Shown piece by piece: positions 20,277 through 50,171 of a stretch of DNA of 64,000 nucleotides (positions within the stretch are counted from its first letter, which is position 1; every line of letters begins with the position of its first letter). A program made the position numbers and the translations under genes. The notes under the pieces are model-generated. The model was given only the letters and a program-made list of their open reading frames with translations, was not told the DNA's origin and made no database searches. Origin of the DNA: Microbacteriaceae bacterium 3FA27C10 (lineage in GTDB: Bacteria > Actinomycetota > Actinomycetes > Actinomycetales > Microbacteriaceae); assembly GCA_005502775.1 (NCBI GenBank), contig SCNI01000007.1, positions 57,309 through 121,308 on the forward strand, read 5' to 3'.

Positions 20277-21209
20277 GTGCTCGCCAACTATCTGATCGGC
20301 CTGCGCGAAGGGCTCGAAGCTGCCCTCGTGGTGGGCATCCTCGTGGCCTACGTGCGCAAGATCGGCCGCCGCGACGTGCTGTTCCGGCTCTGGTCCGGCG
20401 TCGGCCTCGCCGTCCTCGTGTCGCTCGGCCTCGGCGCCGTCCTCACCTTCGGAGCCTACGGCCTGAGCTTCGAGGCCCAGGAGGCCATCGGCGGCTCGCT
20501 CTCGATCGTGGCCACCGGCTTCGTGACCTGGATGGTGTTCTGGATGCTCCGCACCAGCCAGAACCTCAAGGGCACCCTGCACTCCGACATCGAGAAGGCT
20601 CTCATCGGCGCCGGCTGGGGTCTCGTGCTCGTGGCGTTCCTCGCGGTGGGCCGGGAAGGCATCGAGACCGCCCTGTTCATCTGGGCCGCGGTGCAGGCCA
20701 CCGGCGAGACCACGTTCCCGCTGCTGGGAGCCGCCCTCGGCATCCTGACCGCCGTGGTGCTCGGGTACCTGATCTACCGGGGCCTCGTGCGCATCAACCT
20801 CTCGAAGTTCTTCGCCTGGTCGGGCGGGTTCCTCATCCTCGTCGCGGCCGGTGTGCTGAGCTACGGCGTGCACGACCTGCAGGAGGCGGGCATCCTCCCG
20901 GGGCTGAACAACCTGGCCTTCGACGTGAGCGGCATCGTGCGGCCCGACAGCTGGTACGGCACGCTCCTCAAGGGCACCGTGAACTTCTCCCCCGCCACCA
21001 CCTGGCTCGAGCTGGCGGTCTGGCTGGCCTACTTCGTGCCCACCATGATCCTGTTCCTCCGCGCCGTCCGGCGCGGGCCGAAGAAGACGCCGGCCGCCAC
21101 GACCACCGCACCGACGGCGCCCGTTGCGCGAACGAACCCCACGACCACTGCCCCCACGATCCCTGCCTCCGCCGATTCCGGCGCCGTCCCCCGCTTGGAG
21201 CACCTGTGA
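20277..21209 (+). CDS. efeU: Ferrous/ferric iron permease EfeU (FTR1 family)
   Basis: 310 residues, GTG start giving (M)[14 protein letters not shown]. Both REGxE motifs of the FTR1/EfeU iron channel are present (residues 10-14 and 126-130). About seven membrane helices are predicted, and the last 45 residues are a Thr/Ala/Pro-rich cytoplasmic or external tail. It moves iron across the membrane after handling by EfeO and EfeB. Expression is probably repressed by an iron-bound DtxR/IdeR regulator at the two boxes upstream. The stop overlaps the efeO start by 4 nt (GTGA). Confidence 0.95.
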
Positions 21210-22390
21210 AGACCCGACCGATCCTCGTCGCCGCCGGCGCGGCGCTGACCGCCCTCGCCCTCGCGGGCTGCGTTCCCAACAACACCTCGTCGACGGATGC
21301 CGCCGGCGCGATCACCGTCGACAGCTCGGCCGACGCCTGCACGGTGAGCGCCAGCACGGCCACGAGCGGCACCCTCAACTTCAACGTCACGAACTCCGGC
21401 ACCCAGGTGACCGAGTTCTACCTGCTCGCCGAAGACGGCCTGCGCATCGTGGGCGAGGTCGAGAACGTGGGCCCCGGCATCAGCCGCGACCTCGTGGTGC
21501 AGGCCCAGCCCGGGAACTACTTCACCGTCTGCAAGCCCGGCATGGTGGGCGACGGCATCGGCCGCGCCTCCTTCACCGTCTCGGGCGACAAGGTGCAGCT
21601 CGCGGGCGACCAGCAGCAGCAGGTCGACCAGGCCGCCACCAACTACGTGGCCTACGTGAAGGACCAGGTCGGCCAGCTCGTCACCGGCACCGACACATTC
21701 CTCGCCGCCTACCTGGCGGGCGACGACGCCACGGCCCGCACGCTGTACCCCACGGCCCGCGCGAACTACGAGCGCATCGAGCCCGTCGCCGAGTCCTTCG
21801 GCGACCTCGACCCGGCCATCGACTTCCGCGAGGCCGACGTCGCCGCGGGCGACGAATGGACCGGCTGGCACCGCATCGAGAAGGACCTCTTCCCGCCGGC
21901 GGCCGCCGACAACGGCGGCACCGCCTACGTGCCGCTGACGGCCGACGAGCGCAGCCACTACGCCGACAAGCTCAAGGCCGACACGCAGAAGCTCTACGAC
22001 GCCGTCACCGCCTCCGACTACACGGTCGGCATCGACGCGATCTCGAACGGCGCCATCGGCCTCATGGAGGAAGTGGCCTCGGGCAAGATCACCGGCGAGG
22101 AGGAGATCTGGTCGCACACCGATCTCTGGGACTTCCAGGCCAACCTCGAGGGCGCCAAGGTGGCCTACGAAGGCGTGCGCGACATCGTCGACGCGAAGAA
22201 CCCCGAGCTCGTGAAGAGCCTCGACACGCAGTTCGCCTCGCTGCAGACGCTGCTCTCCGGCTACGGCAACCTGAGCGACGGCTTCACCTACTACAACGAC
22301 CTCAGCACCGAGCAGGTGAAGCAGCTGGCCGACGGCGTCAACGCCCTGGGCGAGCCGCTCAGCCGCCTCACCGCAGCCCTCGTGAGCTGA
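21206..22390 (+). CDS. efeO: Iron uptake lipoprotein EfeO
   Basis: 394 residues with a lipoprotein signal ending in LALAGC (Cys22). Residues about 35-130 form a cupredoxin-like domain; the rest is the M75/imelysin-like helical domain with the HRIE motif (222-225), the HxxE metal site of this family. It binds iron outside the membrane and passes it to EfeU. The GTG start overlaps the efeU stop. Lipidation would depend on Lgt, encoded at 42.2 kb. Confidence 0.94.
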
Positions 22391-22421: not shown

Positions 22422-23750
22422 ATGTCTGCCCAGGAAACACCCGAGGAGCAGCCAGAGACCGTGACCCCGGATGTCCCGCCCGCCCCGACGACGCCTGCCC
22501 CGGCGAGGCCGAACAATCCCCTGCGGGAGATGCCGGACTTCGTCGGGGCGGGAATCGGCTTCTCGCTCGACCGCTTCGTGCTCCCCCCTGCCGCTTCGGC
22601 ACAGGGCGGCGGCACGGTGTACCCCTTCTTCGCCGCGAACCAGTCGGGCATCGTCACCCCCGCGCAGGATCGCCTGCACTTCGCCAGCTACGACGTGGCC
22701 GACATCTCGCGCGACGAGCTGGTGACCCTGCTGAAAGACTGGAGCGCCGCCGCCGCATTGATGACCCAGGGTCAGCAGGCCGGCACCTACGGCGCCACCG
22801 GCGGCCCCTACGACGCTCCGCCCGACGACACCGGCGAAGCGCTCGGCCTGCCGGCATCCGGCCTCACCATCACCATCGGCTTCGGCCCCAGCCTCTTCAC
22901 GAACGCGGCCGGCGCCGACCGCTTCGGCATCGCGGCGCAGCGCCCGGCCGCGCTCGTCGACCTGCCGCACTTCCCGGCCGACATGCTGCAGGACGAGCTG
23001 AGCGGCGGCGACCTGTGCATCCAGGCCTGCAGCGACGACCCCCAGGTCGCGGTGCACGCCATCCGCAACCTCTCGCGCATCGCCTTCGGGCGCGCCTCGA
23101 TCCGCTGGTCGCAGCTCGGCTTCGGCCGCACCAGTTCCACCTCCCAGGCGCAGGCGACCCCGCGCAACCTCTTCGGCTTCAAGGACGGCACCGCCAACAT
23201 CAAGTCCGAGGAGACGGATGTGGTGAACGGCCAGGTCTGGGCCGCGGCCGACGACGGTGCGGAGTGGATGGCGGGCGGCTCCTACCTCGTGGCCCGCAAG
23301 ATCCGCATGACGATCGAGACCTGGGACCGCACCTCGCTGCGCGAGCAGGAGCGCGTGATCGGCCGCACCAAGGGCGAAGGTGCTCCCTATTCGGGCGGCA
23401 CGGAGTTCACCGCCCCCGACTTCGCCGCGCTCGGCGCCGGCGACAAACCGCTCATCGACACCCGCTCGCACCTGAGTGTCGCGCACCCCGACCAGAACTC
23501 CGGAGCACAGCTCCTGCGTCGCGGCTACAACTTCGTCGACGGCAACGACGAGCTCGGGCGGCTGAACGCCGGACTGTTCTTCATCGCCTACCAGCGGGAC
23601 CCCCGCGCGCAGTTCATCCCCATCCAGATGAACCTCGCCAAGAACGATGCGATGAACGAGTACATCCGGCACGTCGGCTCGGGCGTCTTCGCCGTACCGC
23701 CCGGAGCCTCGACCGGGGGCTACGTGGGCGAGACGCTCTTCGGCGCGTGA
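22422..23750 (+). CDS. efeB: EfeB deferrochelatase / DyP-type heme peroxidase, Tat signal inverted
   Basis: A 442-residue DyP-type peroxidase that takes iron from heme or oxidises it at the cell surface. The mature-domain start TVYPFFAANQSGIVTPAQ, the GFKDGT motif and RSHLSVAHPD identify EfeB. Family members carry a twin-arginine signal; here residues 24-40 instead read as a proline-rich stretch (TPAPARPNNPLREMPDF) with no RR motif, although the later part of a signal (GAGIGFSLDRFVLPPAASA) is kept. The missing motif is encoded on the opposite strand of the same 48 bp, flanked by 13-bp inverted repeats. As written the protein is probably cytoplasmic. The stop overlaps the MFS gene by 4 nt. Confidence 0.93.
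   Translation: MSAQETPEEQPETVTPDVPPAPTTPAPARPNNPLREMPDFVGAGIGFSLDRFVLPPAASAQGGGTVYPFFAANQSGIVTPAQDRLHFASYDVADISRDELVTLLKDWSAAAALMTQGQQAGTYGATGGPYDAPPDDTGEALGLPASGLTITIGFGPSLFTNAAGADRFGIAAQRPAALVDLPHFPADMLQDELSGGDLCIQACSDDPQVAVHAIRNLSRIAFGRASIRWSQLGFGRTSSTSQAQATPRNLFGFKDGTANIKSEETDVVNGQVWAAADDGAEWMAGGSYLVARKIRMTIETWDRTSLREQERVIGRTKGEGAPYSGGTEFTAPDFAALGAGDKPLIDTRSHLSVAHPDQNSGAQLLRRGYNFVDGNDELGRLNAGLFFIAYQRDPRAQFIPIQMNLAKNDAMNEYIRHVGSGVFAVPPGASTGGYVGETLFGA
22479..22552. repeat. Putative intragenic invertible segment in efeB
   Basis: Perfect 13-bp inverted repeats CCCGCCCCGACGA (22479-22491) and TCGTCGGGGCGGG (22540-22552) enclose 48 bp (22492-22539). Because 48 is a multiple of three, both orientations keep the efeB frame open. 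Reversing the 48 bp gives codons 24-40 reading KSGISRRGLFGLAGAGV, followed in frame by VGAGIGFSLD: a complete Tat signal. No recombinase gene is in the window. Whether the segment still flips, or was flipped once, cannot be told here. Confidence 0.85.
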
Positions 23751-40152: not shown

Positions 40153-40364
40153 TCCCCCTCTGTCATCGTGCCTGAGAGATTCACGTCGCGCCCGGCATCC
40201 CGGTCGTTCGACGCTTTCACCGTGGGCGAGCCGCTGTCAATGCCGCGGACTGCTTTCCAGAGTGGCCAGTTCGACGCGGTACGGGGACCTGAGAGATTAT
40301 CGGAGAGGATTGCTCCTTCGGTGCCACCGGGCTGGACTGCCCGGACGGCTCTCCCGCGTCGGCC
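40153..40364 (-). ncRNA. Tandem glycine riboswitch (gcvT leader)
   Basis: Read on the minus strand, the first aptamer has CGGGAGAG, then CACCGAAGGAGCAA and AATCTCTCAGGTCC; the second has CCCACGGTGAAAGCG and AATCTCTCAGGCACGATGAC followed by AGAGGG. These are the conserved blocks of the two-aptamer glycine riboswitch. It ends 66 nt before the gcvT ATG. Just after aptamer 2, GAGTTCTC (40147-40154) is complementary to GAGAACTC (40087-40094), which overlaps the gcvT ribosome-binding site, suggesting control of translation. Confidence 0.93.
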
Positions 40365-40453
40365 TGATGGCCGGCGGTATTCAGTTGTGGTGAAGTGCTC
40401 GAGGCGCCTCGCGAACGAGCATAGCGCCGATCGTCAGGAGCGATCGCCCTCGA

Positions 40454-50085: not shown

Positions 50086-50171
50086 CGCGAATCGGAGGGG
50101 GATTTCGACTTCCGCCGCCTTTGAGCTCCGCTCAACCGAAGGCGGAAGTCGAAATCCCCCTCCGATTCGCG
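50086..50171. terminator. Perfect 31-bp inverted repeat between rmuC and glpX
   Basis: Arms 50086-50116 and 50141-50171 are perfectly complementary. Within the 24-nt loop TTGAGC (50121-50126) pairs with GCTCAA (50130-50135), giving a stem on a stem. Located between two convergent genes, it is probably a bidirectional terminator, though exceptionally long. Confidence 0.8.

Follow-up and report, generated by a model that had tools for sequence, protein, structure and literature searches.

In the efeB gene of a Herbiconiux genome, a 48-bp segment lies reversed relative to the same gene in 153 relatives. We hold with moderate confidence that the most likely cause is a recent inversion by pairing of the short inverted repeats that flank the segment, leaving an EfeB that is predicted to be cytoplasmic. 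The gene lies in a 64-kb stretch of DNA (hereafter the window) from a 4.0-Mb draft assembly of 115 contigs (completeness 99.88%, contamination 0.34). It comes third in an efeUOB operon, models for EfeU and EfeO matching directly upstream on the same strand, and its product scores 472.8 bits against TIGR01412 over residues 62-440, above the curated cut-off of 428. A twin-arginine (RR) signal, which TIGR01412 leads one to expect of EfeB, is absent from the assembled frame and present once the 48 bp are reversed. The genome encodes TatC, and thus the Tat pathway exists in this organism. Table 1 lists the features concerned.

Table 1. The efeUOB operon and the inverted segment within efeB; positions are those of the window.
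Feature	Position	Strand	Description
efeU	20277-21209	+	NF041756, FTR1 iron permease
efeO	21206-22390	+	NF041757, Imelysin domain
efeB	22422-23750	+	442-aa DyP-type deferrochelatase/peroxidase; TIGR01412 and both Dyp_perox Pfam domains; frame intact
Left arm of inverted repeat, CCCGCCCCGACGA	22479-22491	+	Codes P-A-P-T plus one base
Inverted 48-bp spacer	22492-22539	-	Minus strand codes SGISRRGLFGLAGAG, the end of the Tat n-region and start of the h-region of relatives
Right arm of inverted repeat, same 13-mer	22540-22552	-	Sits in V-G-A-G codons of the plus strand
Remaining signal region, FSLDRFVLPPAASAQ	22560-22604	+	Identical in both orientations; possible AxA cleavage site (by eye)

The two arms are 13 nt long, 100% complementary and separated by 48 nt, and both lie inside the single gene efeB. 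As assembled, EfeB begins with MSAQETPEEQPETVTPDVPPAPTTPAPARPNNPLREMPDFVGAGIGFSLDRFVLPPAASAQ; the RR pair is missing from this form, as is the first half of the hydrophobic stretch. Reversal of the 48 bp keeps the frame open and gives MSAQETPEEQPETVTPDVPPAPTKSGISRRGLFGLAGAGVVGAGIGFSLDRFVLPPAASAQ, the N-terminus then reading ...PAPTKSGISRRGLFGLAGAGVVGAGIGFSLDRFVLPPAASAQ as in congeners; reversing the spacer alone gives the same result as reversing the arms too. The hydropathy maximum over 15 residues is 1.38 in the assembled form, compared with 1.75 in the reversed form. The first-pass annotation had described the perfect repeats, the lack of a twin-arginine motif in the assembled translation and the in-frame recovery of PAPTKSGISRRGLFGLAGAGVVGAGIGFSLDRF... 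on reversal, and all three descriptions are borne out.

Its argument that this arrangement is unlikely to be due to chance holds only in part. A scan of all six frames of the window for [ST]RRx[FLVIM] ahead of a run of at least 10 residues with no D, E, K, R, N, Q, H or P gave one occurrence, exactly at the efeB spacer on the minus strand, whereas perfect inverted repeats with arms of at least 13 bp and spacers of 10-150 bp occur eight times in the window. The hidden signal is rare; the inverted repeat alone is not. That the length of the segment is divisible by three, also offered as evidence, carries no weight, given that an inversion never changes length. The open frame of the flipped form is likewise expected anyway: the corresponding stretch, when flipped, acquires a stop codon in just 3 of the 153 relatives, and in none of the 21 in which the arms are at least 11 bp.

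The orientation of the segment was compared across 154 Microbacteriaceae efeB genes, one per genome, of which 16 are from Herbiconiux (the window included) and 138 from other genera, the latter among 222 matching non-Herbiconiux genomes. An in-frame RR motif is present in 153 of the 154, the window being the sole gene without it. A stricter pattern, requiring [ST]RR with the right neighbour together with an uncharged stretch, at a distance of 44-69 residues ahead of a conserved anchor, fits 151 of the 154; besides the window, the two genes outside this pattern keep RR and have a changed neighbour residue. Among the named loci RR was found in 64 of 80, the conserved anchor having been missed in the other 16. 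GISRRG stands in frame at this site in all 15 of the other Herbiconiux genomes examined. The reversed spacer is identical to those of the 15 congeners at 36-44 of 48 positions, whereas the assembled strand matches at 14-18 of 48, about the level of unrelated GC-rich DNA, which supports the annotation's view that the Tat signal stands in the wrong orientation. The annotation had named two outcomes that would speak against that view, a homologous proline-rich sequence in relatives or the lack of a Tat signal there; the result is clearly the opposite, with RR in 153 of 153 relatives.

Of 7930 protein matches that passed, 120 were listed; 116 of these carry [ST]RRx[FLVIM], three begin downstream of the motif and one is the window protein itself. 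Residues 13-56 of the assembled EfeB, searched against a collection of ∼5.8 billion proteins, matched only themselves and no relative among the 75 candidates scored. Neither this search nor the set of 153 relatives yielded a second inverted efeB. Given that RR is in frame in 153 of 154 genes and that the reversed spacer matches the congeners, it is an inversion that separates the assembly from its relatives, and we consider an inversion in efeB to be well supported. From the orientation in relatives, the spacer identity and the peptide search together, we infer that the export orientation is ancestral and the assembled one derived. As in a repeat-mediated microinversion, the stretch between the inverted repeats is the ancestral sequence in reverse complement.

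The hidden signal is almost undecayed. The neighbour of the window EfeB in the tree is H. daphne, with weak support (81/61), and over the 15 complete codons that the reversed spacer contains, one residue differs between the two. Had the signal been unread since the H. daphne split, ∼8 changes would be expected (32 sites × 0.25, from a dS of 0.52), and a rough Poisson estimate gives P = 0.003 for so few. Thus either the inversion is recent or the segment is in the export orientation for part of the time, a pristine spacer being equally expected under back-and-forth flipping. Compared with H. daphne, purifying selection is evident in the mature domain of EfeB (dN 0.091, dS 0.52), and the catalytic part shows no amino-acid excess over EfeO, for which dN is 0.119. 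Relaxed selection on EfeB is unsupported, efeB dN not being above that of efeO. No Herbiconiux row of the EfeB tree, 15 in total, has an end branch as long as that of the window EfeB, at 0.13.

The codons around the RR motif suggest why repeats occur at this site. In many Herbiconiux, Pro-Ala-Pro codons precede the motif and Gly-Ala-Gly codons follow it. These flanking codons are complementary when their third positions are G or C, and the Herbiconiux repeats around RR are thus partly a consequence of Pro-Ala codons before the motif and Gly-Ala codons after it. Codon make-up accounts for much of the repeat, and some Herbiconiux excess remains beyond it. The longest perfect repeat enclosing the RR codons has a mean arm of 10.4 bp in the 16 Herbiconiux, compared with 7.5 in synonymous-codon shuffles, with p ≤ 0.05 in 5 of the 16 (p = 0.013 and 0.030 for the window in two runs), while in the other genera the mean is 7.4 compared with 6.9 and p ≤ 0.05 in 21 of 138; the rows are related by descent, so that these tests are not independent. 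Of the 16 Herbiconiux, 8 have arms of at least 11 bp around the RR codons; of the 138 genomes from other genera, 14 do. The single-strand hairpin of the window is strong relative to dinucleotide shuffles (z = -4.67). Against synonymous-codon shuffles, p is 0.28 for the window, and ≤ 0.04 in 5 of the 16 Herbiconiux but not in the other 11; selection on the hairpin is, by the former value, unsupported for the window. At three loci of other Herbiconiux (L006, L007 and L016), inverted repeats of 14-15 bp surround the RR motif at slightly shifted places, and flips there would yield similar proline-rich N-termini.

On the reading that we prefer, a recent repeat-mediated inversion, the two perfect 13-bp repeats would have paired during replication or repair, and a template switch or hairpin-linked repair would have reversed the 48-bp spacer without any dedicated recombinase. 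The reversal takes the twin-arginine motif out of the protein and leaves the efeB frame open, and the EfeB haem peroxidase would be retained in the cytoplasm. We regard the loss of EfeB export as a sound prediction; against it, part of the hydrophobic stretch remains in the assembled form. Since the arms are still perfect, a similar event could restore the signal, and in that sense this would be a slow switch. An inversion free of recombinase is favoured because the documented routes need none, the contig carries no recombinase match and the arm has no other exact pair. Resolvase and phage-integrase domains (PF00239, PF00589) gave no match on the window's contig, the 4 and 7 matches found genome-wide all lying off it, and the 4 further exact matches of the arm 13-mer in the genome are never paired.

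One occurrence of the 13-mer falls within the reading frame of a tyrosine recombinase (1028-1942; locus L145, 1068-1080, contig C60). We considered this as a dedicated recombinase site and set it aside as probably due to chance, the 13-mer being unpaired there (one match in 3.4 kb, with 0.45 expected when up to 2 mismatches are allowed). Elsewhere in the window, a perfect inverted repeat of 31 bp, its spacer 24 bp long, lies between convergent genes at 50086-50171; its 12 genome matches comprise 2 to itself (both strands) and 10 elsewhere, in the likeness of a REP-type palindromic family. On the minus strand, 40153-40366 holds two glycine riboswitch aptamers side by side (Rfam RF00504; 59.1 and 40.2 bits). 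The genome also has two more DyP peroxidase genes in which no Tat signal was recognised by eye. One of them adjoins a 266-aa gene that, by eye, resembles an encapsulin shell protein (locus L279, 542-2553, on the same contig and outside the window).

Recombinase-free routes of this kind are described outside the bacteria. In yeast genes, according to excerpts of PMC8604942, spacers have inverted at perfect short inverted repeats, with some sites flipping back; the inverted spacers measure 2-5 bp, shorter spacers being favoured. Between human and chimpanzee, excerpts of PMC8755829 report microinversions flanked by inverted repeats with spacers of 17-33 nt, for many of which the authors prefer a break-repair route. 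Small inversions in plastids are typically 4-50 bp and are linked to hairpins (excerpts of PMC12371153). At 48 bp, the efeB spacer is within the plastid range and above the primate and yeast ranges as given in these excerpts, and the shorter spacers of the latter two are a point against the repeat-mediated route. In the titles and abstract openings covered by our literature search, we found no bacterial example of such a spacer inversion.

The first-pass annotation had offered either an intragenic inverton or a one-time inversion that disabled export. The inversion itself stands, as judged against the 153 relatives. Only one orientation was seen in this species, in a single copy in the assembly, and no recombinase domain was found on the contig; the second of these options is at least as good a fit as switching. 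A phase-variable intragenic inverton, in which both orientations persist in the population through a recombinase or through frequent flipping at the repeats and EfeB is either exported or cytoplasmic, seems to us possible but unlikely. It gains from the perfect arms around an undecayed signal, from arms longer than shuffled expectation in Herbiconiux and in the window itself, from the open frame in both orientations and from the recombinase-domain matches elsewhere in the genome; part of E. coli EfeB is, moreover, reported active on haem in the cytoplasm (excerpts of PMC3577903). Set against this, every other genome examined, 15 of congeners and 138 of other genera, has the export orientation, the contig lacks a recombinase match, the other copies of the 13-mer are unpaired and the repeats of other genera are barely above the null. 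A recombinase gene is often, not always, present near inverton repeats, an enzyme encoded elsewhere might act on them, and the ∼61 bp between arm centres are short for synapsis by known invertases. Within the species, the evidence on orientation comes from one genome with one copy in its assembly. S. aureus FepB stripped of its signal peptide allowed haem iron to be used, but FepA had to be present as well (excerpts of PMC3577903). EfeO is the counterpart of FepA and is unchanged in the window's genome. Because FepB needed FepA and EfeO is not altered, a cytoplasmic EfeB might lack its partner; going by the E. coli and S. aureus reports, cytoplasmic retention need not abolish EfeB activity. 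Among the matches listed by literature searches on intragenic invertons, on Tat signals with phase variation (10 of 63 matches) and on bacterial microinversions (titles and abstract openings, mostly of papers outside the subscription literature), none concerned inversion of a Tat signal.

We think it improbable to a greater degree that the organism really carries the export orientation and that the reversal is an artefact of assembly, amplification or consensus calling. The genome is a single draft in 115 contigs, the 153 relatives examined are oriented the opposite way, and inverted repeats promote chimeric reads. However, usual assembly k-mers exceed the 13-bp arms in length, and usual reads exceed the 74-bp unit, which should keep a minority chimera from prevailing; the completeness and contamination values and the single copy in the assembly argue in the same direction. 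Very improbable, in our judgement, is an inversion that became fixed longer ago and settled EfeB in a cytoplasmic role. The long end branch of the window EfeB would fit such a history, but the hidden signal is undecayed, efeB dN does not exceed that of efeO, and the genome already has the two other DyP genes in which no Tat signal is recognisable.

A bolder proposal, which we put forward tentatively and consider rather doubtful, is that the EfeB Tat signal is a reversible DNA switch without a dedicated invertase, placing the haem peroxidase outside or inside the cell, and that complementary Pro-Ala and Gly-Ala codons around RR make high-GC actinobacterial Tat signals prone to flipping in general. 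Were it a true switch, with an inversion deciding the membrane side of an enzyme, protein targeting would join the traits that small inversions switch. Should it be no more than one recent mutation, the efeB case would still be a clean natural micro-inversion that removed a targeting signal in one step and left the frame of the enzyme intact. It also points to a sequence reason, the complementary codons flanking the RR motif, which is testable across actinobacteria.

The window EfeB shares family, operon and domains with EfeB/YcdB/FepB (TIGR01412, tat_substr_1), and differs in that its assembled frame is without the twin-arginine motif. The intragenic, or recoding, invertons reportedly described by Chanin et al. 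(2024, Nature 634:234) have, like efeB, repeats inside a gene and a flip that keeps the frame and recodes the protein; efeB differs in presenting one orientation in one genome, without a linked recombinase, and in that the recoded part is an export signal. Excerpts of PMC11868660 and PMC11892184 mention these invertons as a reference and a count. Among small inversions, those of plastids (PMC12371153, excerpts) resemble efeB in their size class of 4-50 bp and their flanking repeats or hairpins, and those of primates (PMC8755829, excerpts) in their flanking inverted repeats, but at 17-33 nt; unlike efeB, neither lies in a bacterial signal peptide. With the template-switch inversions of yeast, efeB has in common that perfect arms are kept, only the spacer is reversed, the change is in frame and flip-back is possible over evolution; as excerpted from PMC8604942, the yeast events span 2-5 bp and alter up to two residues, whereas in efeB 48 bp and most of a targeting signal are reversed, in a bacterium.
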